A DNA stretch of 64,000 nucleotides from Riptortus pedestris (taxonomy: Eukaryota > Arthropoda > Insecta > Hemiptera > Alydidae), in contig CM032229.1 in the NCBI GenBank assembly GCA_019009955.1, positions 142,871,501 through 142,935,500 on the forward strand. Reading direction: 5' to 3'. The notes under the pieces are model-generated. The model did not search any database and was not told the DNA's origin. It saw only the letters and a program-made list of their open reading frames with translations. How positions within the stretch are numbered: position 1 is the first letter of the stretch; each line of letters starts with the position of its first letter. Positions 3,111 through 54,362 of the stretch are shown in pieces. Made by a program: the position numbers and the translations under genes.

Positions 3111-3810
<700 letters not shown>

Positions 3811-4020
3811 TAACTTCCAGTTTTTGCTACTATGACTAATTGGGATGGGTTATCTACATTATACGACCCATTTGTAGCCAGGGTGGTACAAAGGATTTTA
3901 TTTAATGAGTTAATCACGAAATAAACTCCTAATGCCCAGGCGGGAATCGAACTCGTCACTCTGGGTTTACCATATGAGATTAAGGCCGACGCTTGAACTC
4001 ACTTGGCTAACCTGAGTCCC
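3811..4020 (-). mobile_element. tRNA-derived SINE, near full length
   Basis: Read on the minus strand the element starts GGGACTCAGGTTAGCC with an A-box-like segment, continues to a B-box (GAGTTCGATTCCCGCC) and TGGGCA, then a body containing AATAGGA/TTTATTT, the 'ccaccctggctac' segment and 'gataacccatcccaatta'. The head is about 85 nt, long enough for a type II tRNA with an extra arm (Leu or Ser like). The same order of blocks is seen at 6031, 34393 and 54167. Confidence 0.8.
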
Positions 4021-4034
4021 GTTTCAAAATTAAT

Positions 4035-4365
4035 TCCTTTACAGTATTCATAAACTTCAAAATTACTTAATGAAACAACAGTTGAATGTCAATTAATAAA
4101 TTACTTTTTATGATTTAAAAAAAATCACCTGCCGTGACCAGGATTCGAACCTGGGTTATTGCGGCCACAACGCAATGTCCTAACCACTAGACGATCACGG
4201 CTATCGAGGCTCTGGAGCAAAATCACTGGGAGAAGAAGCAGGACCGTGAAGCTGAGGCAGTTACATCAAGCGACGAGGGGCTAGCGGCCGCCACACAGTT
4301 TTTCTACTGCTCTTACGCTCGAAAAGGACTATCTCATGGCAATAATTGATTAATCTTATAGACAA
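4035..4365 (-). repeat. Inverted duplicate of the tRNA-His locus, copy 1
   Basis: This block, reverse-complemented, aligns with about 14070-14420 through the tRNA and about 110-130 bp on each side. Shared flank segments include 'gccctaactgcctcagcttcacgg'-like blocks (for example AACTGCCTCAGCTTCACGG) and CCAGAGCCTCGATA before the tRNA, and 'cataaaaagt' plus 'tttattaatt' after it. By eye the flanks are roughly 80% identical while the tRNA is identical. Confidence 0.8.
4130..4201 (-). tRNA. tRNA-His (anticodon GTG)
   Basis: This 72-nt cloverleaf begins GCCGTGATCGTCTAGTGG on the minus strand. The acceptor stem GCCGTGA pairs with TCACGGC, the anticodon stem TTGCG/CGCAA closes the loop TTGTGGC, and the T arm is CCAGGTTCGAATCCTGG. 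The anticodon GTG reads histidine codons. The A box and B box are intact, and a run of eight T residues on the minus strand (4124-4117) can serve as the RNA polymerase III terminator. The extra 5' G of mature tRNA-His is normally added after transcription and need not be encoded. No intron. It should be functional. Confidence 0.96.
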
Positions 4366-4412
4366 ATTTCCTTTAAGGTAAATATTTCCTTATATAATAT
4401 AGAATATAATAC

Positions 4413-5140: not shown

Positions 5141-5758
5141 GTGAAAGACAAGTATATATATACTTGACTGAGTTTGCTTTCGGTTCGTCTTGTAACTGCT
5201 GGAGGTATTTCGTTCGAGCAAGGAAAAGTTACTAGTCGAGGAAAAAGTGGCCGGATAACCAGTGGGAGGATTTGTGGAGGCTAGGGTTTTAAAATTGGAG
5301 GGATCACACTAAATGGTTTAAGATGATAGAATAGGTCGAGGTCCCATAGCGCCTACTTATGTTTTTAATGACAGGAAGTCGGAAGTCAGATTAGTAGTTA
5401 TCCTTCAAACCCAGTTTTTAACACTGTGAAAAAAAAAACCCTTAACACAATTTGTTATTTATATTTTTCTGATAGCTTAAGATTAAGAATTCCAGGCTAG
5501 AACTAAGTTTAGTTATGTTGCCTATTTTATATAACAAGGTAGTGGTTTCAAAAAAATATGATGTCACAGCAATTTTTTTGAACCCTTCCAAAGTGATTGA
5601 ACAAGCTACTAGCGGACATAGAGATAAATATTTCGATTTTGACAGAAATAGTACCAGATTCATGTGAACAATGTACTTACATCACCGAATTTAAATAGAT
5701 TTGTAGACAAACCGTAGAGATTTATTTAAATTCGTCATTATTAGAGAATTACAAGTCT

Positions 5759-5803
<45 letters not shown>

Positions 5804-5832
5804 AGGCTTTAGTTTGATTTAATAGTTATTTT
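5141..5832. other. No gene seen; poly-T run
   Basis: AT-rich sequence with no coding signal. A long T tract at about 5762-5796 is the only notable feature and could be the tail of an unrecognised retroposed sequence. Confidence 0.4.
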
Positions 5833-5841
5833 CAGCACAAG

Positions 5842-5938
5842 TACGGAAACTGAGTGTTTCGATACGAGGTCTATTTTTACGAGCGAGGCGAAGCCGAGCT
5901 TGGAAAACAGACCGAGTACCGAAAAGACAGTTTCCGTA
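5842..5938 (+). repeat. Structured hairpin element 1, GCGAGGCGAAGCCGAGC core
   Basis: The 97-nt segment folds on itself. The outer stem TACGGAAACTG pairs perfectly with CAGTTTCCGTA. Inside it TTTCG pairs with CGAAA, TAC with GTA, GGTCT with AGACC, and TTTT with AAAA. The apical core at 5883-5899 has GC/GC and GGC/GCC pairs around a GAA triloop. Facing GA/GA pairs occur twice, between TAC/GTA and GGTCT/AGACC and again inside the core; such tandem GA mismatches commonly form sheared pairs. I do not recognise the family. A partner with different stems but the same plan lies at 7784-7882. Confidence 0.8.
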
Positions 5939-6030
5939 AGAATAATGAAAATTACTTTTCATTACACTGTACAACAACCTCAAGAAATTACTGAAATTAA
6001 TTAAGCCAAACAGGTTTATTTTTATGGTAG

Positions 6031-6261
6031 TTATTATTATTATTATTTATTAACGTCCACTTTTTGCAACTCAGGCTAATTGGGACGGGTTATCTACAGG
6101 TTACCACCCTTTTCTAGTCAGGGTGGGGTTTTAGGATGTTATTTAATGAATTTCGTCACTAAATAATTTCCTCTGCCCAGGCGAGAATCGAACTCGCCAC
6201 TCTAGGTTTGCCATGTGAGATAAAGGCCAACGCTTCAACTCGCATGGCTAACCTGAGCCCC
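6031..6261 (-). mobile_element. tRNA-derived SINE, full length with ATT/AAT tail
   Basis: This is the best copy of the family. On the minus strand it runs GGGGCTCAGGTTAGCCATG, a B-box GCGAGTTCGATTCTCGCC, TGGGCA, then AATTCATTAAATAACATCC, the 'accctgactagaaaagggtgg' type block, TAGATAACCCGTCCCAATTA and GTGGACGTTAATAAATAATA with an AAT-repeat tail (6034-6050 as ATT on the plus strand). Such simple tails suggest mobilisation by a LINE that recognises a short 3' tail. Confidence 0.85.
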
Positions 6262-6617
6262 GAATGTTATGAAACATATGTCAGAACAACAAGGTTACAA
6301 ATTACATCTTTATATTGATATTAATTGTGCAATTATTATTGGCGCTAATGTTAAACCCTTTAGGGGGTATGTACGGCTTGTTGATTACCAAATTATTGGT
6401 TAATATCGATTCAACAGCATCGATTTCTTCATTAAGATAGTCATCTATTGTGAAGAACATCTCTTCATTCTTTTACATTCGTCTCACACGTATTCCCAGT
6501 ACAACTATAACAGTTATTTAGTCAATGTTTAGTAACACAGGTTACGAAGAGTTAAATGAAAAAATTAGGAATATTACAAATACATGTGTTTGATTCCCGC
6601 CAAATTTTACCTTCCTA

Positions 6618-6660
6618 GTACAGAAACTCTTAGTTTCCGTACGCAGATCATGCATAGAAA
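6618..6660 (+). repeat. Short hairpins possibly related to the structured element
   Basis: GTACAGAAACT is followed after three bases by AGTTTCCGTAC, and AGAAAACA by TGTTTTCT. The outer arms resemble those of the hairpin element at 5842-5938 (GGAAACT/AGTTTCC), and the downstream 'gtgtaatgaaaatta' resembles its 3' flank read in reverse. The GA-rich core is missing, so this may be a deleted relative or a coincidence. Confidence 0.35.
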
Positions 6661-7564
6661 ACACATGTTTTCTAGTCAGTGTAATGAAAATTATAATTTA
6701 TTACCGCTGGATTAGATTTTCAGTTGATTGGGAGGAGTGGAATAAGAAACTAGTGGAGGTGGTGAACACTTTTTTTTCTCTTCTTTTTTTTTTAAACAGG
6801 AAGGTAGTAATTATGGCTTCTTATGGAAAATTGTAGAAAGGAAGAGATATATTTTGTATCTCCCGGTTCTAAAACAAACAATTTTCGCTTCCCGTTACAC
6901 TGAAACCTTCACAAAAGCTGGAACTACCTGTGGCTGTTGTACAATAGTTAAAAGTCCCGGAAGAATGTATTGACCAAACAGCCCCGGGGTTAAGTAATAG
7001 AAATTCATGTACTTGTATTAACAGAGCCTCCTTTGGTAATAACGATGTTTAAAATAAACTTCCGCAACAATTACTATCATTCAATCTAAAGTTTATGTTT
7101 AGTCAGGTGGTTCACTCATGTTTCTCTTTCTCCAGTATTCTGAATATCATTATATGGTGAAAAGACCCTCTCACAGAAACTTACAGCTACATTATTTTAA
7201 TGGCAAGAATATCAGTAACTAGACGTTGGAATCCTCGTATTTTGAATACATCAACTTCCTGTATGGTTGGTTGGGGCAAACTTTATAACTGGGGCTTATT
7301 TTTAGTGGCTTTATAAGCGCACTTTATCGCAAGGGGTCTCAGTTAAAGTAATGAACCAATGCTATACGAAATATAACTAGTGGATACATAGAATTGCTAT
7401 ATAATATTATTACAATTAAATAAGCAAATATTCTAGAGAATATGCAGAAAAAAAAATATGAACTGTATACATACAGTCTTCACCCTTCATAATGTAACTT
7501 TTAATATGGTACAAAATTAAACTTAGGTTGAGAAACGATTTGTAAAAATTGTTAGAAACTTAAA

Positions 7565-7690
7565 ATTATTTATTATCGTTCACTTTAGGAAACTGAAGCT
7601 AATTAGGACAGCGGGTTATCTACAGGTTACTCTTTTCTAGCCAGGGTGGGACTAAGGATTTTACATAATAAATTTCGTCACTTAATTCAA
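7565..7690 (-). mobile_element. tRNA-derived SINE, head missing
   Basis: It matches the body and tail only: 'tatcgttcacttt', 'ggttatctacaggttac', 'ttctagccagggtgg' and 'aaatttcgtcact' read as at 6050-6165. The tRNA-derived half is absent, so the copy is truncated at its 5' side. Confidence 0.7.
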
Positions 7691-7783
7691 CTAATATAAA
7701 CGTATCATATGCTACCGAAGCTAATAAATGACCTGACCTTTTTTTACAAACTGAATAAAATAATAGTATATTACGTTACTAGG

Positions 7784-7882
7784 GCCGAAAGTGGCACTTT
7801 ACGTTGCGAGATCGTGTTTGACTGGCGAGGCGAAGCCGAGCTTGTTAATTCGATCGAGCATCGTAAAGTCACTTTCTGTACG
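7784..7882 (+). repeat. Structured hairpin element 2, GCGAGGCGAAGCCGAGC core
   Basis: It has the same plan as 5842-5938 with different stems. GAAAGTG pairs with CACTTTC, ACTTTACG with CGTAAAGT, TGC with GCA, and GATCG with CGATC. The GA/GA facing pairs again sit between the TGC/GCA and GATCG/CGATC stems and inside the core at 7825-7841. The loop core GGCGAAGCC is unchanged. Upstream 'taatag' and downstream 'taatg...tacttttcat' are shared with element 1. A 72-codon open frame crosses this locus but its inverted-repeat content argues against coding. Confidence 0.8.
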
Positions 7883-7929
7883 AGTAATGTACAATACTTT
7901 TCATCACGAGGCAAAAACGCATATTAAGG

Positions 7930-8639
7930 CGGTTTTTAATTCGTGAATCTTTTAATAATTAATATTTCCATTATTGGTAACAGCTGCTTCACCGTAGACA
8001 TAATAAAAAACACTTTATTTAGCGGGAGGTTAAGTGACAAACATATGACTTTACAAGCCTAGAGTCGAAAACTTTCGTCCCTCTGTAAAGGCCGAGATCT
8101 GTAAAGGCCTACTTTCCTATCTCCCAGCTGGTATCGAAAGTATCTACTTTCCAATCCGAGAGAAAAAATCTAAATCTAAATTATAATTTGAAAATTATAT
8201 GTACACATAAAATGCTGGAGTTACTCCGTCATTTCACAAATAAGTACGCTAAAAGTAAAGTTCCAATAATCTAAGAAAAAATGACATTACTTTGGATTCT
8301 ATCACATTTTGACCTTAATGGAAACGAAATTTCTATTTAAAAAAATGAATATAGCTGTATAATTCGTTCAAACAAAAATAACATATATTTCTCATAATAA
8401 AAGCCACTATGAACTTTGATATATTCGAAAATTAGAATTGGATATCTGAAAATGGAATACAATGTCCTAATGATGCGGGTTACCCCACTTACCTGTGATT
8501 CTCGTAGCAGTTATTTGGCTTTTCTATGCAGTATGTTAAAATCCATTAGATATGGTAAATCAAATAATGGGTTAGAACCACCTGTATGAATGATAGTTCT
8601 GTGCGAAAGCACCATCATCAAGCCGTCGAAAGTTGTACT
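7930..8639. other. No gene seen
   Basis: AT-rich, no recognisable repeats. The sequence around 8060-8150 ('cctctgtaaaggccgag', 'ctgtaaaggcctac') holds a short local duplication of CTGTAAAGGCC. Confidence 0.4.
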
Positions 8640-14069: not shown

Positions 14070-14420
14070 ATCAATAATCAATTATTGCTGTGATTGATAA
14101 ATGATTGATGAATCGACCTCTTCGAGTGTAGGAGCAGTAGAAAAACTACTAGACAGCCGTCAACCCCTTGCAGCTGGACTAACTGCCTCAGCTTCACGGT
14201 TCTGCTTCTTTCCCCAGTGATTTTCCTCCAGAGCCTCGATAGCCGTGATCGTCTAGTGGTTAGGACATTGCGTTGTGGCCGCAATAACCCAGGTTCGAAT
14301 CCTGGTCACGGCAGGCAATTTTTTTGTCATAAAAAGTTATTTATTAATTCAGATTCAAGTGTAAAAATAACAACTGCTGTCGCTTAAATTGATTTTTTTT
14401 TAAGTTTATAAACTGTGCTA
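14070..14420 (+). repeat. Inverted duplicate of the tRNA-His locus, copy 2
   Basis: This is the partner of 4035-4365 in opposite orientation, about 10 kb away. Homology begins near AATCAATTATTGC and extends past the tRNA to about AAGTTTATAAACTGT. Flank divergence with an unchanged tRNA points to an old duplication with purifying selection or gene conversion on the tRNA. Confidence 0.8.
14242..14313 (+). tRNA. tRNA-His (anticodon GTG)
   Basis: It is identical over all 72 nt to the minus-strand copy at 4130-4201: acceptor GCCGTGA/TCACGGC, anticodon loop TTGTGGC with GTG at 14275-14277, T arm CCAGGTTCGAATCCTGG, discriminator A. A run of seven T residues (14319-14325) lies five bases downstream and fits a polymerase III terminator. 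A box and B box are intact. It should charge with histidine and decode CAC, and CAT by wobble. Confidence 0.97.
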
Positions 14421-27785: not shown

Positions 27786-27793
27786 TTAAAAAA

Positions 27794-28206
27794 GTCCTTC
27801 ACGAAGGGCCTGCGTTAAACTAAGCAGATTTCCCACGTGAAGTTTTACAATAGATAAATTTCACGAGAGCCGAACAATTACGGAAACGGCCGAACTAGCT
27901 TTTCGGCGGAATCTCAAGACTAGAACCGAACTTAGCCGATTACTGTTACACGCACACACTTTAACTGCAAATATCTGGGTTAATATTCAAGATAGAGAAT
28001 AAATGCATATAACAATATTTATAGCAATTTTAATTTGCATTAAGATTGATTTTATGCAATTTTTCGATCCGACGCATTTCGCATTTTTGAAAACCCTCCC
28101 CTCTAAACCGTCCCTCCCAGCGGTTCTTACTCTTACATACAACGTTTAAATATCGAGTTTGGTAAACGATCAAGCAAAAATTGCGACCACTAGAGCTTTA
28201 ACAGAC

Positions 28207-28261
<55 letters not shown>

Positions 28262-28383
28262 GTACGGACCTAATTTTCGTCATCTCCTGGGTAGGATCGT
28301 GATGGACAATTGAAGAGAATTTTTCAAAATCGCGTCATGAGTACGACCTCAATAGATGATTTCCCCTAAGGGAAATCTGCTAA
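27794..28383 (+). mobile_element. Family H full-length copy A
   Basis: Start GTCCTTCACGAAGGGCCTGC (hairpin partly mutated), AAGCAGATTTCCCACGTGAA, 'aatagataaatttcacgaga', body, ATTGCGACCACTAGAGC, (TA)n at 28205-28259, 'ggacctaattttcgtcatct' and the 3' palindrome followed by TCTGCTAA. It is about 590 bp and has no coding sequence; transposition would depend on an autonomous Helentron elsewhere. Confidence 0.88.
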
Positions 28384-29560
28384 AAACTGTGTCAATAGAC
28401 AGGTCAAGGAGTGAATAAGAGAATAGGATTTTGAATGACCTCATCTGAGTGGGAGTTACTGCAGGGGGGAAATGTTCCTTGGCTACGCGGGATTTTTTAA
28501 ATTTTTAGTTTTTTATTGTATCGACATTATTAATATTCTTTTTTAAATTAATTAACAGTTTTTGCTACTATCATTAGCATTCCCAGTCTATGGTTGTGAG
28601 TCAATATCTTAAGTTCGTAAATCACGGTTCTCAATCCCTACTATTTCCATCTTATTACAGCCATTATTTATAAGAAACAGAAATTATTTGATCATACACA
28701 ACCCATTTATAACAAGTTAATAAAAAAATTCTTTTTTTTTTGTTTGATTGTGTACGGTGCCTTCGGTTAGTCTTCTATTCATCTCTGCTGAGCGTTCATC
28801 CTTATGGCACAATGTTATATGCTCAGATTCAATTTTGATTAGCTTAGGTTATTTTAACATTTGGTTAACTGAACATGGTAGCTATACTGTTTTTAAATTA
28901 CTTAATTTGCGTGTAGCCAAATAAATAATATTCAATTTACGAAATTAGATATGTATTTTACTATTTTTTGAATGACCAACATATGTAGTCACATTTACAA
29001 AACTGCTATTATGTTATTTACGGCCATAAATGTGTTGGCCGAAAATTTTTTATCGATGACATCCATGCAGTTGCATTGCGTTCCTAAAAAATCAGATAGT
29101 TTGTCCCTAAAACAGCTGATTCTCGTACCACTTTACTTCCTATTTGACTATATCTGACAGAAATTGAGTTTTTCATAATAAAAAGTGGAAATTTAGATAG
29201 AAAAAAAAACACTTTTCTAGAAGAGATTTATTGATTTATTTTTATGGACGGGCTTACTTAAATGTGAATATTTTCTATTTCTTTTATCGTTTAATCAAAT
29301 GAACGTAAATTGTATATATCTAGTAATTGGTTGATTTGTTTGTACAAAATGTTAACCTGCCTTTCACCAATAGCCAAATACCTCGAGGCATAATTCACTC
29401 TAGCTTATTCTCCTACATATTTGTTATTATTACTGTTTCATTTCCCATGCTACCCAGTTGGTATCTATATATAATTGTTTGATCATTATATTATTTTAAT
29501 GGTAAATTGTACCCCTTAGATATTTGGGAAACAGGCCTTAATAACAGGAAGTCCTCCCAC
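28384..29560. other. No gene seen
   Basis: AT-rich; a 61-codon plus-strand frame at 28972-29157 has no recognisable features. Confidence 0.45.
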
Positions 29561-29625: not shown

Positions 29626-29997
29626 AACAACAAAGAAATATGTTTAAGGCCATGGGATGTATCAAAAAAACTTACATTTGAAATGTTAATATATAATATA
29701 ACCTAAAAAAAATTACTAAAATGAGTCTTAAGAATTGTCTTAGCTTAAAAAATATAAAAAAATCACAATCATATAAACTAATAAAACATAATTTAATTAG
29801 TTTAAAATTAAATAATACCTAAATAAATATACAGATATTTAAAAATAAAAACATCCATTTGGTATAATTAAAATTCCAATTATTGAAAAAAGTTCCTACC
29901 TCGGCCGTATGGATGGATGCTATGGGTTTCGGACCACTACTGGCGACTAGCAGAGAAGGTGGAGGCCTACTATACAGAAACCATACTCTGTTATAAG
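29626..29997. other. No gene seen
   Basis: AT-rich with a small mixed patch at 29900-29990; not assigned. Confidence 0.35.
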
Positions 29998-30000
29998 AAA

Positions 30001-30611
30001 GTCCGTCACGCAGGGGGCTGCGTAAACTAAGCAGATTTCCCACGTAAAGTTATACATTAGAGAAATCTCCATACGGGTGCCGAAACAGTTACGGAAACGG
30101 CCAAACTATTTTTCGGCGGGAACGACGAGAAGCGACCATAGCTCGTCCGTTACACTTAATAAAATGCAAATATCTCGGTTAATATTGAAGATAGAGAATA
30201 AATGTATATATAAAATAGTTATAGTAAATTTAATTTGCAATAAGATTGGTTCTATACAACTTTTCCAACATATAGTAACGGAGATACTTCGAATTTTTGA
30301 AATTTCCCCCTCTAAATCTCCCCCTCCTACAGTTCCGATTTCAGCCATTAACGAACTTGATTTTTCTTTTACTTAAAACGATTAAATACCGAGTTTGGTG
30401 ACGATTAAACAAAAATTGCGACCGCTAGATTGTTAACAGACAAATATATATAATATATATATATATATATATGTAGATAGATATATAGTTTTGAACGGAC
30501 CTCATTTTCGTCATCTCCTGAGTAGGATCGATGGACATTTAAGAAATGGTTCGAAAATCGCGTCATGAGTACGACCTCAATAGCTAATTTCCCTTAAGGG
30601 AAATCTGCTAA
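30001..30611 (+). mobile_element. Family H full-length copy B
   Basis: It carries GTCCGTCACGCAGGGGGCTG, AAGCAGATTTCCCACGTAAA, the 'acggaaacggccaaact' block, the body, ATTGCGACCGCTAGATTG, a (TA)n tract at 30446-30475, and a perfect TTTCCCTTAAGGGAAA followed by TCTGCTAA. Its ends are flanked by AA on the left and T on the right. The frames on both strands within it are not coding. Confidence 0.92.
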
Positions 30612-30639
30612 TATACTACATTATTCGAAGCTTAACTAC

Positions 30640-34392: not shown

Positions 34393-34569
34393 AATTATTT
34401 ATTAACGTCCACTTTTTCCAACTAAGGCTAATTGGGACGGGTTATCTACAGGGTATCACTCTTTTCTAGCCAGGGTGGGATTAAGTAAATTCCTATTGCC
34501 TAGGTGAGAATAATACTCGCCACTTTTGGTTTACCATGTCAGATTAAGGCCAACGGCTAACCTGAGACC
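34393..34569 (-). mobile_element. tRNA-derived SINE, shortened
   Basis: Tail 'tcaattatttattaacg', then 'aggctaattgggacgggtta' and 'tctagccagggtgg' as in the full copy. Part of the body and about 13 bp of the head are deleted, and the element ends at CCAACGGCTAACCTGAG. Confidence 0.8.
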
Positions 34570-43996: not shown

Positions 43997-44000
43997 AAAA

Positions 44001-44576
44001 GTCCGTCACGCAGGGGCTGCGTAAACTAAGCAGATTCCCCACGTGAAGTTATACAATAGAGAAATTTCACGAGAGCCGAGCAGTCAAGGAAACGGCCGAA
44101 CTAGCTTTTGGCGGGAAATTCACTCTCCCCCCCAGATTCAATAAAAATGCCAATATCTCGGTTAATATCCAAGATAGAGAATAAATGTATATAACAATAT
44201 TGATAGTACATTTAATTTTCAATAAGATTGATTCTGTACACTTTTTCGATCCGATGTATAGTAACGGAGATATTTCGAAAATCCTCCACCCTAAACCTCG
44301 CCTCTCACTGGTCCGATTTCAGCCGTTAACGAACTTGATGTTTCTTTTTACATAAAACGGCTAAATATCGAGTTTGGTAACGATCAAACAAAAATTGCGA
44401 CCGTCACAGGGCTAACAGACAAGTATATATATACACACACTCACACACACACAGTTATGAACGGACCTCATTCTCCTCATCTACTAGGTAGGATGGAAGG
44501 ACATTTGAAGAAAAATATCGAAAATTCCGTCATGAGTACGACCTCAATAGCTGATTTCCCAGGGGAAATCTACTAA
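44001..44576 (+). mobile_element. Family H full-length copy D
   Basis: A near-consensus 5' end (GTCCGTCACGCAGGGGCTGC, AAGCAGATTCCCCACGTGAA), the 'gagccgagcagtcaaggaaa' block and a complete body. The dinucleotide tract is short and has become (TA)n(CA)n (44423-44452). The 3' palindrome is reduced to TTTCCCAGGGGAAAT, followed by CTACTAA. Confidence 0.9.
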
Positions 44577-45611
44577 AACGAGTTTATCAGATCCGTACTC
44601 CCACATATATCACCTTATGAAGAAATTAAGAATTTTAGTTAATTTTGTGGGGTACCCATGAATTTTCCCATCCCTTCATCTGTATTTTTCAACATCAGAC
44701 TCACTCACTTCAATAACTGCTCGTTGTTGCAGTAAGAGATGGACTCTTATAGAACAATAAGTATGTTAGGCTGTGTTTATTTTATGCAACGCAACTCAAC
44801 CGGCAAATAAATACCGAGAGATCCGTCTTATAAGCATGCGAAAACCGGCTGCCTGCAGATAATAAATGTCACAATTTCACAGGCAGGTGCTGAGCCGTGA
44901 CAGTCAGAAAATAATGAAGGACAAAACTGAGGGTATTGTATGTAAATGTAACGATATACTATAATGAATCATTCTTGTAATTATTTTCAACCTCCTTTTT
45001 TTTTATTGGAGGAAACAGAAACAGGAAAAAAAAAAAACTTCATGTAGTAAAATATAATAACTCAACGGGTTCTTCTTCATGCATAACTTATTTTTAGCCT
45101 TGAAATGGTTTTTACTCGAATAATTAATCTGAAGACGTGTTATTATTTTTTCAAATTTATTATTGTGATTATATTCCTTAGGACTATTATCTCTAAGCAG
45201 ATTCAGTGGATCACTAACTATTTAATCAGCAAACAGGATTTTCAAAAAATTGACACTTTGTCTACTCGTTTTTGAAAATGAATAACTTTTTTAAAATATT
45301 AAAATGTCAAAGTTTAAATTTTGACAAGTCATATCTTTTGACTCATATAAAAAATGAGATTTTTGTCCATGCCCCACCAGGATGTTATGCTTTAAACTTT
45401 GCAAAAAACATATTCTCAACTTTTAAAAAATCATAAAAAATAAAGGTAACATTTATTATTGTTAAGATGCCTCTCGCTGTATTGAATATGAAAATAAAAT
45501 TTGATATCCCAGCCCTTCATCATAAACATAGGCTCTGAATAGCAAGACCTGTTATATATCGCTGCCAAACTTTAAGAAACATTTTCATGCATAAAACTAC
45601 AAGTAAGGCTT
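44577..45611. other. No gene seen
   Basis: AT-rich sequence; no feature identified. Confidence 0.4.
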
Positions 45612-45733
45612 TTAGCAGATTTCCCTTAGGGGAAATCAGCTATTGAGGTTGTACTCATGACGGAATTTTCGAAATTTTTCTTCAAATGTCCATCGATCCT
45701 ACCTAGTAGATGACGAAAATGAGGTCCGTTCAA

Positions 45734-45785
<52 letters not shown>

Positions 45786-46228
45786 CTGTTACCTGTTACC
45801 ACTCTAGCGGTTGCAATTTTTGTTTAATCGTTACCAAACTCGATATTTAGTCGTTTTATGTAAAAAGAAAGATCAAGTTCGTTAACGGCTGAAATCGAAC
45901 CAGTGGGAGGGGGGGTTTAGAGGGGAGGATTTTCGAAAATTCGAAATATCTCCGTTACTATACGTCGGATCGAACAATTGTACAGAATCAATCTTATTGC
46001 AAATTAAATTTACTATGAATATTGTTATATACATTTTTTCTCTATCTTGAATATTAACTGAGATATTTGCATTTTTATTAAATCGGGGCGCCTAACGGAC
46101 GATAGTTACTTTCCCGCCAAAAGCTAGTTTGGCCGTTTCCTTGACTGGCTCGGCTCTCGTGAAATTTCTCTATTGTAAAACTTCACGTCTGAGATCTGCT
46201 TAGTTTACGCTGCCCCTAAGTGACCGAC
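45612..46228 (-). mobile_element. Family H full-length copy F
   Basis: On the minus strand: 5' end GTCGGTCACTTAGGGGCAGC, AAGCAGATCTCAGACGTGAA, 'cacgagagccgagccagtca', full body, ATTGCAACCGCTAGAGTG, (TA)n at 45737-45781, 'gaacggacctcattttcgtc' and 'ctgatttcccctaagggaaa' with TCTGCTAA at 45612. Confidence 0.9.
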
Positions 46229-47829
46229 TTTTTGTGGTGGGACACGAAATTAATGGATAATAAATGTTTAATAAATTGGTCATAGTTGCAGTATTATAGC
46301 ATAATACTGCGCAAAGAAAAACATGTGTTTTCATCATGCATCATGCTGCAAGCCACTAACTGGTGCGAGTTGAAATACAAAAATGGGTTCCACAAACAAT
46401 CAAGGTGCCATAAAATCATTTTTGTACATCGAGTGCATATAACATAACTTTTTTATATTTTGAAATTACGTTTTTTGTAGTAAAAAATATTCAAAATGGT
46501 CATGCAACCGTCATTATATTACTTCATATTCTTTGAACCTGCTTATAGTTGAATTTCTCAACTTTTTGAACACGTGGAAATAAACATTTACTTCCTCAAA
46601 TTTTCATCCTTAATTATATATAATTTCGATTTACTCCTTTTTTTTTTGTAAAATGGAATATATTATTTCTGAATTAACGTTCAACCCTTCGCCGGGTCGA
46701 AACTTGTATTTGCAAAATAAATGCATCAATTATTTAATTCTTTACGTAATGAAACTTCCAATTCTCAGAGCTTAGATTTTTGTAATCTTTATCCAGAGAA
46801 TAATCGCAAAATTTTCAGTTGCTGCTACTGTTTAATATCTATTATTTGAACAAATTACTGATATTTTCACCTTTCGCTGAAGACAATGAAGTTATTTATT
46901 TCTGAATAACTCGTTGTACATTTAAGTACTTTATTAAGTAAGACTCTCATTCTTTTTACTCAATCTTGGGAAAAATAAGTGTGTTGTCAAATGAAGTTTG
47001 GTAAGTTATAATATAATATTAATTATTGTTAGAACTAATATTGTTTTTAGCATATTATGCTTATTGACATAATAAATATTATTATTAATGTGGAGACGCC
47101 TGTAATTAATTCCGTTACCCGGAGAATCCCCATCTAAATGTTTACAATAACTATCGGCTTGTTACAATATTATTATTGTTTTCGGTTATTATACTGTTAT
47201 GATATAAATCTGTATTACGGGTTAAGTATACAAATGCGATTGAGCTCTGTCTCATATTAATTCGTTAAATTTATCATATGCTAAAATGTATGCCCGTGTA
47301 GAGCTCCTCCCTAGTAATTAAAGTTTCATATATTAATTCCGCTATGCCAAAAGATTTTAGAAAATCGAATCACGATTAACGACAATATATCAATAACAGC
47401 GGATAGGTTTTTTTTTGTTTTTTCATATACTATTTTTTAAATGGAAATTAACCTTGTATAACCATGGTGGAACTAGATACTTTACTAAGTGAATCTGTTA
47501 CCAAAAATCAAATTACTCAAAGTAATCCTTTTAAATTTTAAAACAAATACTGGAGCATATGTCTTAAGCTTAGCTCACATGAAGTTTTTAAAACCAACCA
47601 AAACATTGACTACATTCCTGGACACCAAGATGTCCCACAGTAATGCATCTGCTGCCAAAAAAGTTCAATTTAATTCTGAAATTTAACGATTGGAGTAAAA
47701 CCCCGGGCATTCATTCATAAATGGCGGAAGGAAGTACAAGGTGTTCATGTCTTAGCTAATTCAAAAATGTTTTAAAAATTACTGCGTATGACTACTATTC
47801 CTATACACCTGATGACGAATATATATACA
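46229..47829. other. No gene seen
   Basis: Very AT-rich. A 65-codon plus-strand frame (47489-47686) shows no domain. No repeat identified. Confidence 0.45.
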
Positions 47830-47912: not shown

Positions 47913-48323
47913 ACACAATCGCCCTTCCATATAAGCAGGGACTTCCTCGAAAAACTGTCAAGAATTCTCCGGAAACATTTTCGGATAGCAAAAACACCTT
48001 GTTTTTCAGTAAGGTAGAGTCTATTTGATAGCCTGAGATAGTAAAGCTTACGCAGGACTGAGAGGAATGAACACTGTCAAAAGAGTCAACATGTAGCAGA
48101 TCTGAAACATTACACATTCAACCCCTCCTCTCATAGCTAGCCACTACAGGGTTTGTACTCCCGAAATTAAATTTGACAAAACATAACTTTTACACAGAGA
48201 AAAATGCTAAGATAAAACATTAGTACTAGAAGCTCTCGAAATTATTAAGAGAAAACATTATAAACAGCGTAGACTGAGTAATTCCCCCTGGAACCATTTG
48301 AGGAGATAGTAAATTACTTCACA

Positions 48324-48380
<57 letters not shown>

Positions 48381-48445
48381 ATCAGTTAGGCCCACAAGTT
48401 TTTGACTAGGCTCATGAGACTTAAACTATTCATGAAACTAAAAAA
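47913..48445. other. Unassigned; (TA)n(TG)n microsatellite
   Basis: Non-coding sequence with a compound (TA)(TG) microsatellite at 48325-48377. A minus-strand frame of 71 codons (47902-48117) overlaps family H sequence and is not credible. Confidence 0.5.
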
Positions 48446-48899
48446 GTCCGTCACGCAGGGGCTGCGTAAACTAAGCAGATTTCCCTCGTGATGTTTTACA
48501 ATAGAGAAATTTCAGAATAAAGAGCCGGAACCATTATGGGAACAGCCCGAACTACCTCTTGGCGGAACCTCACGAATAGACCCGAAGAGAGCCGATCTCA
48601 TCTCAGAAGATAAAAACAAAAATGCAAATATCTCGGTTAATATTCAAGATACAGAATACACGTATATAACACGATTTATAGTAAATGTAATTTGCAATAA
48701 GATTGATTCTATATAATGTTTCGATCCGACGTATAGTAACAGAGATATTTCGAATTTTCAATAATCCTCCCCTCTAAACCACCTCCCACTGGTCCGATTT
48801 CAGCCATTAACGAACCAGATCTTTATTTTTACATAAAACGTTTAAATTCCGAGTTTGGAAACGATCAAACTAAAATTGCTACCGCTAGAGCGTTAACAG

Positions 48900-48953
<54 letters not shown>

Positions 48954-49072
48954 GAACGGACCTCATTTTCGTCTCTCCTGGATAGGATCGATGGACATTT
49001 GAAGAAATTTTTCGAAACTCGCGTCACAAGTACGACCTCAATAGCTGATTTCCCTTAAGGGAAATCTGCTAA
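48446..49072 (+). mobile_element. Family H full-length copy E
   Basis: GTCCGTCACGCAGGGGCTGC, AAGCAGATTTCCCTCGTGAT, complete body, TTGCTACCGCTAGAGCGTTA, (TA)n at 48904-48948, TTTTGAACGGACCTCATTTT, a perfect TTTCCCTTAAGGGAAA and TCTGCTAA. With copy B it is among the best-preserved members. Confidence 0.93.
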
Positions 49073-50179
49073 TATGAATCAAAATTGCCGAAATTCAGCA
49101 GTAAGGGGAAACATTTAAAACCATTGATATCTATGTTATTGTTTATAGTCAAATTGTTTGTCTCTCCTGTACATTTCATTGAATATTTATGTAACTCTGA
49201 TATTAACCACGAACGTTACCCATTATTATATACTAAAAATATTTCATCTCCTGCTTTCAGTTTCAAATCTGATTTATACTGGGTTCTCAGTAAGTAGGAG
49301 AAATAATGAATATGATGTGAGAAAATTTCATATCCATGTTGAGAACGCGGAAAATTCTTTAGTTAACCCTTCATCAACATAACAGAGGTAAACTAGGGGT
49401 ATTGTGACCACCATATATCCTAATCGAAGCTTATAGTATGAAAATGTACTTTTTGATTCTGTCATATATGAGCATAATTGCACACAGATATGCATCTCTG
49501 TAAAAATGGTAGTCTATGTACTCTGTTTTCATTGATTCTTTGAGTAAATCAATAAACATAACTTTATTTCTAATTTAAAAAAAGAAATCTATAGTATCTA
49601 ACTCCAATTAATCTAAAAAATCTATAATTCTATTAATACATGTTTAGCTCTCCATGGCAAAGATTTTAGAATTACCAGAAACGAGTTCTGCCCAAAATAC
49701 ATTCATATCGAAACGTCTCGTATATAAGTCGGGATTTGGGCTGGCTGGTGGAGGTCCATCATCAACAGAAGGATAATAAGGTCAAAACACATCCACTCTT
49801 AAGACTTCATTTATTAAATGCAGAGTAATTTCTCCCATATTCCCATATTCAGTGCTCTGTGACACAACGTTTACATTTTTTAAACAACATGTAACATAAA
49901 TAAATATAATAGTCAATAAAAGATAGTCAACATATTAAAAAGTTAAAAACAAATAGGTATATAAAAAATGTAAAAACACAATGTAAATCTTATAACTAAA
50001 ACATTTTCTAAATAACTATTAAATGATGCATAAAATAGAATAAATAGGAAATTCATCTCATATATCAGTACTAGGACAGCAGTATATTTCCAGTAAACCC
50101 CATAGAAGTCCAGATAAGATCCAACCGACCAGTATATTTTTTCTGGAGTTTGTCAACAGAAATTGTATGCGAATCTACA
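49073..50179. other. No gene seen
   Basis: AT-rich; overlapping plus-strand frames at 49085-49382 have no recognisable features. Confidence 0.4.
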
Positions 50180-51047: not shown

Positions 51048-51060
51048 AGATAATAACTCT
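51048..51060 (+). repeat. Target-site duplication, left (LINE at 51061)
   Basis: AGATAATAACTCT here recurs exactly at 51974-51986. Confidence 0.92.
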
Positions 51061-51973
51061 CACAAGCTATTATTTTTACAAAAAGAAGACCGAAAATCCC
51101 AGAGCAATCCAACTTTGACAATAATCCTATATCATGGTCGAAATATATTAAATATTTAGGGGTGACGTTAGACAAAGGACTAACATTCACAGAACACATA
51201 AATAAAACGTGTGATAAAGCTAACAAAGTTATTTGCCAGATTTACCCATACTTTAATCGTAAATCGAAACTGAGCCCTGTGAATAAACTAATGTTATACA
51301 AAGCCTGCATCAGATCAGTATTAACATATGCTTGCCCCGTATGGAGCTATATATCAAACACCAATTTAAGAAAACTACAAATATTTCAAAACAAATGCCT
51401 GAGAATTGTGTATAATCTTCCCTATCATACAAGAATAAGAAAATTACATCAAATTTCAAACTTACCAATGGTAAAGACATATATCCGTAATCTAACCACT
51501 AAATTTTTCAAATCTTGCAAACACAAAAACAACCCACTCATCAATGAAATAGGTAATTATAACAAAGAAAGCACTGCTAGGTACGTACATAAACGAACGA
51601 AGCACATCTTACTCTAACACAAGAAACTGACTGAATCAATACCCAACAGGCTAGGCTAAAGACATGTAACACCTTTATCTTAATCCCTATTTTACCTCTA
51701 ATCATATTAAATAATCATAAGAAAGTCTGTACTTGTTATTATTATTAGCTCATAAGGTCTCTTAAATTTGTAAATATTTAAAATAACTGTTATCACTAAG
51801 TTGCAATATGACTGCCTACTATTAGTCAATTGCATTTCAACAATCCGCTACTTAAATAGAAATTTTTATTTTATGTTTCCTTTTGTAAATTGCAGTGGTC
51901 ACAAGGAACACTATGAATTATCTTGTAAAAATTCTTGTTATTCAATAAAGGATTATTATAAAAAAAAAGAAAA
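51061..51973 (+). mobile_element. 5'-truncated Jockey-like LINE with exact 13-bp TSD
   Basis: A 913-bp insertion. It begins inside the reverse-transcriptase gene, continues through about 184 intact codons and a 3' UTR of about 350 bp, and ends with AATAAA (51944-51949) and an A-rich tail (51960-51973). The exact duplication and near-intact frame indicate a fairly recent insertion. Confidence 0.93.
51063..51617 (+). pseudogene. Reverse transcriptase C-terminal part (thumb and tail)
   Basis: The protein shows the hallmark post-palm segment of Jockey/CR1-group enzymes: W-x-K-Y-I-K-Y-L-G-V-T-L-D (about residues 25-37), then HINKTCDKANK, the YKACIRSVLTYACPVW motif (about 81-96), and LQIFQNKCLRIVYN (about 106-119). 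The fingers and the YxDD-bearing palm are missing through 5' truncation. The frame is uninterrupted to TAA at 51615-51617. In an intact element this enzyme would copy the element RNA at a nicked chromosomal site; this fragment cannot. Confidence 0.93.
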
Positions 51974-54166: not shown

Positions 54167-54362
54167 GCTCAGCTTAGCCACGTTGGCCTTAATCTCATAT
54201 GGTAAACCTAGAGTGGCGAGTCCGATGCTCGCCTGGGCAATAGGAGTTTATTTAGTGACAAACGCATTAAATATCCCACCCTGGCTAGAAAAGGGTGGTA
54301 ACCTGTAGATTACCCGTCCCAATTAGCCTTAGTAGCAATAGGTGGGAGTTACGAATAACGAC
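54167..54362 (+). mobile_element. tRNA-derived SINE
   Basis: GCTCAGCTTAGCCACGTTGG, 'cttaatctcatatggtaaac', CTAGAGTGGCGAGTCCGATG (mutated B box), GCCTGGGCAATAGGAGTTTA, 'accctggctagaaaagggtg' and CCGTCCCAATTAGCCTTAG. About 12 bp of the D-arm region are deleted relative to 6031-6261. Confidence 0.85.

Follow-up and report, generated by a model that had tools for sequence, protein, structure and literature searches.

A covarying hairpin near one end of putative Crypton-type elements in the genome of Riptortus pedestris

Introduction

In integron cassettes, the recombination site lies downstream of the gene, and the strand of it that folds is the one opposite the gene. This site, attC, is a palindromic stretch of 57-142 nt of which one strand folds and is used by a tyrosine recombinase (YR), and it is described as poor in conserved sequence and conserved in structure, with stem interruptions that distinguish the two strands (PMC2727003). 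Tyrosine recombinases are also carried by Cryptons. CryptonI, the insect Cryptons of Kojima and Jurka (2011, PMC3212892), carry a single YR gene and have non-autonomous derivatives. Animal Cryptons are reported, in the text of PMC3212892 accessible to us, to have no terminal repeats, direct or inverted, the comparison there taking in 50 copies that belong to a single family and to its derivative, and the word "hairpin" is absent from the main text of that paper. The usual YR site is given in the same source as arms of 11-13 bp around a spacer of 6-8 bp. Among the open-licence papers listed for Crypton and attC together, no study of Crypton recombination sites was apparent from titles and abstract openings. 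We know of no account of the way in which the ends of animal Cryptons are selected and joined.

Structured ends are also described for Helitrons and their relatives. Helentrons, HINEs and DINE-1 elements have subterminal inverted repeats, stems or palindromes of 5-11 nt and insertion at TT without target duplication, and the stems of DINE-1 differ between species in a way that was read as compensatory (PMC4067079, PMC2374699). In the Helitron Helraiser, whose 3' hairpin is a 19-bp palindrome, ~90% of the activity remained after the stem was swapped, and a change in the loop did about the same harm as its removal (PMC4778049). A search of the open-licence literature for Helitron, hairpin and covariation together found no paper.

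Here we describe a family of mobile elements with a hairpin of about 100 nt near one end. The analysis started from two hairpins, h1 and h2, in a 64,000-nucleotide stretch of R. pedestris DNA (the window; GCA_019009955.1, contig CM032229.1, positions 142,871,501 to 142,935,500).

Results

Two hairpins with an identical core

An earlier note, made from the letters of the window, had placed two hairpin elements with a common exact 17-nt core there, and both the coordinates and the core were found again (Table 1). The core had no other match in the window with up to three mismatches allowed, and none of 100 shuffled windows contained a match. Both hairpins outdid all of 200 dinucleotide shuffles in each of eight folding runs (both strands, DNA and RNA parameters), with DNA z-scores of -6.3 (h1) and -5.0 (h2) on the plus strand and -6.7 (h1) and -3.8 (h2) on the minus strand, and RNA z-scores between -3.9 and -9.1 over both hairpins and strands. 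The homology of h1 and h2 extended over ~145 nt (nhmmer E-value 6.8e-16). Comparison of 40 hand-registered pairs showed that 24 were unchanged Watson-Crick pairs, five were Watson-Crick in both hairpins with both sides changed, one more was changed on both sides and is G-T in h2, and the remaining 10 varied on one side or were broken in one copy. The observation made in the note was thereby confirmed. In the open-licence literature, the exact core was not found as letters, and no paper was found that combined its GCGAAGC motif with a hairpin and a transposable element.

Table 1. Features of the two hairpin-bearing elements in the window
Feature	Position	Strand	Remarks
Hairpin h1	5842..5938	+	GA/GA fold is on the plus strand
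Core in h1	5883..5899	+	GCGAGGCGAAGCCGAGC; GAA triloop and inner GA/GA
Hairpin h2	7784..7882	+	Folding and hand-registered pairs
Core in h2	7825..7841	+	Exact match
Subfamily C non-autonomous element with h1	5822..6688	-	Sharp ends common to other copies
Termini of C element, in recombinase-gene direction of full copies	5822; 6688		3' (hairpin) end 5822; 5' end 6688
Internal copy of 12-nt subterminal inverted repeat, C element	5958..5969	-	TTCATTACACTG on plus strand
tRNA-like, SINE-like dispersed repeat nested in C element	6041..6262		Matches in many sampled loci, ~66-99% identity
Small hairpin near other end of C element	6618..6642		GTACAGAAACT-CTT-AGTTTCCGTAC
Second small palindrome near 5' end of C element	6655..6674		TAGAAAACACATGTTTTCTA
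Terminal copy of subterminal inverted repeat, C element	6677..6688	-	CAGTGTAATGAA on plus strand
Subfamily B non-autonomous element with h2	7763..8167	-	8167 end approximate and degraded, GAGAGAAAAAA in place of GAGTGATGAAAA
Internal copy of 8-nt inverted repeat, B element	7900..7907	-	TTCATCAC on plus strand; repeat measured on other B copies
Palindrome near 5' end of B element	8136..8151		GAAAGTATCTACTTTC

Family size and subfamilies

Restriction of the core to the two window loci, which the earlier note had named as telling against its reading, is not what the genome holds. A search of the 1,078,779,003-base assembly (1.08 Gb, 138 contigs) with up to two mismatches gave 484 + 450 = 934 places, versus 44 + 43 = 87 for the reversed core. 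We sampled 72 of the 934 places, in 70 loci, together with the window; the 72 were drawn from 100 exact matches listed, and all lie on one chromosome (contig C1). With the two window copies they gave 78 readings, 74 of which were distinct after the removal of double readings from overlapping loci.

By nearest representative, the 74 copies comprised 37 of subfamily A, five of which form a further subfamily, D, as well as 26 of B, which includes h2, and 11 of C, which includes h1. A covariance model built from h1 and h2 and run over 69 sampled sources added subfamilies E (in L113, L123 and L151) and F (one copy in L150 and two in L152), in both of which the core is altered; because copies were selected by an exact match to the core, the sample is uninformative on how frequently the core changes. 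The stretch of 20 nt common to h1 and h2, the core plus TTG, overstates the identity, as the other B copies examined have CTG after the core.

The fold is conserved while the stems change

Covariation was examined with one hand-chosen representative of each of subfamilies A-F (n = 6). Across these, 88.9% of the cells were paired and 14 of the 29 stem pairs were changed on both sides (shuffled mean 6.1; 0/500 shuffles), with a covariation score of 0.441 compared with 0.196 for shuffled alignments and 0.048-0.097 for slid versions. GA/GA faced each other at both expected sites in all six representatives, as they do in h1 and h2, and the 3-bp stem between the two sites also covaried. The apical loop was a GNA triloop in 6/6 (GAA in five, GTA in F). 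In F, the apical stem was changed from GGC/GCC to GAC/GTC with GA/GA and GNA kept, and in E one core pair was changed from G-C to A-T. Among the 74 sampled copies, 63 had the outer GA/GA at the expected offset, and the other 11 carried indels or changes, as expected of dead copies. These results, from many copies, support the view that the fold was kept under selection while its sequence changed.

The earlier note had offered, besides selection, that templated repair from arm to arm keeps the arms matched. Changes within subfamilies were therefore counted in 67 copies; seven of the 74 were dropped for having more than eight differences, and core pairs were left out because the sample had been chosen by the core. 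Of 52 changed pair-cells, 51 had a change in a single arm, with pairing retained in 16 of these and lost in 35, one was changed on both sides and broken, and none was compensated, which indicates that compensation arose in the source lineages and not by repair of resident copies. Arm-to-arm repair or template switching without selection on the fold would agree with the matched arms of each subfamily, and one inverted hairpin in L153 shows that arms can exchange or flip; however, we consider it very unlikely, given the absence of compensated cells and the persistence of GA/GA mismatches that the copying of one arm to the other would erase.

Strand asymmetry

The strand that carries GA/GA (the GA strand) had the lower folding energy in 6/6 representatives, by 1.5-7.7 kcal/mol with DNA parameters and by 1.9-26.3 with RNA parameters, in a structure first drawn from plus-strand folds, which somewhat favours that strand. 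The imperfect cells on the GA strand comprised 10 G.T and 0 A.C (A.C mismatches on the opposite strand), the 10 cells representing fewer independent events. For h1, the z-score of the minus strand was as good as or better than that of the plus strand (-6.7 versus -6.3 with DNA, -9.1 versus -7.9 with RNA parameters).

The recombinase gene described below lies on the strand facing the GA strand, which is antisense to the YR frame in the seven coding loci found (L105, L112, L113, L147, L149, L153 and L159). This bears on the possibility that the fold acts in RNA, for instance in antisense RNA or in a transcript of the element with the GA-strand sequence. The RNA folds are strong and G.U wobble is tolerated, but the antisense position places the fold outside the YR mRNA, and Rfam gave no family above the gathering score at 5500-8200; we consider an action in RNA improbable.

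Anatomy and insertion of the elements

The mobile unit is an element of roughly 0.4-1.9 kb and not the hairpin alone. Each window hairpin is set ~20 nt in from a terminus of an element with sharp boundaries. Copies begin sharply with ATAG ~62 nt before the core and end in ..ATGAA; both ends were located in 62 of the 74 distinct copies, 358-1877 bp apart with nested insertions counted. In gene direction, the elements of A, B, C and E have a terminal repeat TTCAT.., its inverted copy of 8-13 nt, whose end lies at a distance of 136-137 nt from the opposite terminus, then the big hairpin and finally ..CTAT. A third hairpin-like stretch, at 6618-6690 of the window, represents the opposite end of the element that holds h1, and the stem of the small hairpin within it resembles the outer stem of h1, as it does in another C copy.

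When the element was removed, the joined flanks matched uninterrupted copies of the host repeat (L104, L108, L147 and L151). Compared with the trimmed flanks, the uninterrupted copies mostly had two extra bases at the junction, usually AA, and a few alignments placed the gap elsewhere among the matches listed for these loci. Insertion thus took place between A and A, without visible target duplication. Of the 62 copies, 54 had A and eight had T immediately before ATAG. Four head-to-tail joints, ATGAA|ATAG, were found in sampled loci (L113, L123, L134 and L147). After a fifth, exact joint, in L153, the next hairpin is turned round relative to the preceding element (3531-3730), perhaps through a flip between the inverted repeats that flank it. 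At window position 48306, a D-like left end was dismissed as chance, there being no hairpin at that place.

Several other repeats were observed in the window. The SINE-like repeat nested in the C element also occurs at 3811-4023, 7565-7686, 34394-34555 and 54181-54351 and is in places nested in hairpin-bearing elements. Two tRNA-His genes (4130-4201 and 14242-14313) lie in a repeated unit (4078-4409 and 14362-14012, 80% identical) that is perhaps a tRNA-derived SINE. A ~600-bp repeat has at least five copies (27787-28385, 29994-30614, 43997-44578, 45610-46233 and 48439-49075), and a 186-aa open frame at 51057-51614 is a LINE reverse-transcriptase fragment, related to, among others, an X-element protein from Lucilia cuprina and one from Ranatra chinensis.

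Longer copies carry a tyrosine recombinase gene

In some of the longer copies that have these ends, a single YR gene is present, and its reading direction is towards the hairpin. The C copy in L153 (element of ~1.62 kb) encodes 385 aa (L153:2187-3341:-), the B copy 347 aa (L147:2412-3452:+, with pieces in L112, L149 and L159) and the A copy 227 aa (L105:1815-2495:-). The domain PF00589 was found above the cut-off in C, B and A (E-values 3e-10, 4.7e-14 and 3.4e-11, respectively), and in the L153 element, which has one 385-aa frame, it was the sole Pfam domain found. Subfamily E has an N-terminal fragment of 129 aa (L113:814-1200:-), below the Pfam cut-off and 60% identical to C over 124 aa. The R, HxxR and Y motifs were recognized by eye in the translations as ACRxDD/ACRxDE, GHxxRRSSA and AEGYxxxS, and protein identity between subfamilies was 45-60%. 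Both window copies are without the gene and would need mobilisation in trans.

Fifty database proteins matched the YR, and all those with an organism name were from insects; the named relatives are from Tribolium castaneum, Microplitis mediator, Exocentrus adspersus, Ignelater luminosus and Aquatica leii. The best named relative was T. castaneum LOC107397938 (46% identity over 97% of the query), and none of the solved structures matched the YR by sequence. Because coding copies with these ends carry a YR and not Rep/Hel, we assign the hairpin-bearing family, on sequence grounds, to the Crypton-type tyrosine-recombinase elements; by similarity search, it is probably CryptonI, with which it has in common the single YR gene and the non-autonomous derivatives (PMC3212892).

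The assignment bears on another candidate. From the anatomy of the ends and the target, the elements had been suspected to be Helentron derivatives, that is, rolling-circle Helentron/HINE elements in which the hairpin acts as a replication terminator. Subterminal inverted repeats, stem-loops at both ends with a 3' stem-loop, T-runs at the ends and T|T insertion without duplication are all HINE-type features found here (PMC4067079, PMC2374699), and one Rep/Hel element carries an E end. However, the gene of the coding copies is YR and not Rep/Hel, and the Rep/Hel element acquired its E end by insertion, the empty site being found in L177, a sister copy. That Rep/Hel family ends in ..GCTAG with a small hairpin of its own, like a canonical Helitron. 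The hairpin here is ~100 nt, whereas the described stems and palindromes are 5-11 nt, and the subterminal inverted repeat lies 136-137 nt from the 3' end, in contrast to 38-60 nt in mite HINEs, as far as the accessible text of these sources goes. The Helentron candidate was rejected on the YR genes and the empty site, and we regard it as extremely unlikely.

The Rep domain PF14214 had 153 matches in the genome. An E piece with one native and one cut end lies inside a Rep/Hel element in L169 (~8088-8406) and in L175 and, since it is present in two loci, was probably copied along with that element. The cut is at ACATATG/TTT. One-ended rolling-circle transposition of the E piece was considered and set aside, as a deletion at the TTT microhomology explains the cut equally well. 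Separately, recent Helitron activity is suggested by Rep/PIF1 elements whose open frames are long (L168:1796-7258:+, 1821 aa) and by a dozen or so places of equal score.

The other end repeats part of the hairpin stem

The two ends of the elements were compared in subfamilies A, B, C and E, the other ends of D and F not having been located. The other end repeats part of the stem of its own hairpin, with reverse-strand scores of 26, 18, 33 and 36 for A, B, C and E, respectively, each the highest value in its row and in its column of the comparison. With the forward strand, the match to the own stem was clear in C and E only, A tied with C, and the left end of B scored higher with the right end of E than with its own. 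The joined ends of A, C and E form an inverted repeat of 8-11 bp with one or two mismatches and a 7-nt spacer, near the usual layout of a YR site (PMC3212892); the joint of B is without an inverted repeat.

This arrangement raises the main alternative to recognition of a folded strand, namely, that YR protomers bind the arms as inverted repeats in duplex DNA. The covariation would then follow from the changing preference of one protein, and the fold would be a by-product. The ends are short inverted repeats, an arm sequence is common to both ends of an element, YR sites are normally duplex inverted repeats (PMC3212892), and a dimeric protein on double-stranded arms could make the arms covary. 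On the other hand, the pairing runs on to a 3-nt loop, the two GA/GA steps are fixed in 6/6 representatives, the 3-bp stem between them covaries, and G.T, but not A.C, occurs on one strand. We judge recognition of duplex arms to be rather unlikely.

The core occurs in apparently unrelated sequences

The exact core was found in 87 stretches of viral contigs and a 20-mer in 10 prokaryotic contigs. Among the matches listed, inspection by eye of the viral and prokaryotic flanks found no second GA/GA step at the same place. The AT-rich viral contigs L002, L015, L024 and L076 contain the same 17-nt mini-hairpin twice, 867 bp apart and with unrelated flanks, and in bacterial contig L095 (7621-7640) the core forms the apex of another long hairpin, one rich in GC. 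To judge from these sequences, the viral and bacterial matches seem unrelated to the family, the mini-hairpin recurring independently.

Discussion

We have described a family of putative Crypton-type elements whose hairpin near one end keeps its fold while its stems change. In contrast to the animal Cryptons of PMC3212892, at least as presented in its accessible text, these elements have inverted repeats at the ends and a structured hairpin of ~100 nt at one of them. The subterminal inverted repeats of subfamilies A, B, C and E, 8-13 nt long, run contrary to the criterion reported for animal Cryptons; our reading is that terminal repeats were missed in, or are absent from, other Crypton families and that their lack does not define the group.

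We give about an even chance to the reading that the hairpin is a 3'-terminal cis element of Crypton-type DNA transposons that is read as a folded single strand. The YR would excise the element, or copy it, in the form of a circle, and the joint of the circle would then be recombined into an A-run. The hairpin end would be recognised as a folded single strand, the one opposite the YR gene, and would serve as a recombination or recognition site like the attC of integrons. In such a working, the GNA triloop and the two tandem GA/GA steps may form a structural handle, and the covarying stems may form an address matched to the YR of each subfamily, with a smaller form of it at the other end. The single-stranded step is what we infer here, a double-stranded inverted-repeat site being its principal competitor.

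The likeness to attC covers the class of the recombinase, the length, the strand asymmetry and a conserved structure with poor sequence (PMC2727003), and here too the folding strand is opposite the gene and the hairpin is downstream of it. The elements differ from attC in being eukaryotic, in a strongly conserved apex where the tip of attC is variable and in constant interruptions that are symmetric GA/GA instead of one-sided extra-helical bases, in so far as the accessible text of PMC2727003 describes them. The likeness would be one of working and not of descent. A fixed apex with a free stem, the pattern found here, also resembles Helraiser, although that element is a rolling-circle Helitron (PMC4778049). 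A GAA triloop is present as well in the 5' hairpins of Helitron2-type elements of Fusarium (AGCC GAA GGCT; PMC5148889), and the stable mini-hairpin is possibly favoured in several single-strand systems. More tentatively, we raise the possibility, itself doubtful, that an animal DNA transposon recombines through a folded single-stranded end and would be an independently evolved eukaryotic parallel to the integron cassette. It would have a single gene and, downstream of it, a structured recombination site on the other strand, in which the apex is the fixed handle and the stems are a changeable address coupled to the YR.

The genome of R. pedestris contains several YR lineages, each with a matching structured end, so that a candidate recombination site can be spelled out base by base and the pairing of YR and site can be tested between subfamilies. 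If the single-stranded working is true, structure-guided recombination by tyrosine recombinases exists outside bacteria. The family also carries a warning for annotation, in that geneless DINE-1-like elements can be Cryptons rather than Helentrons.
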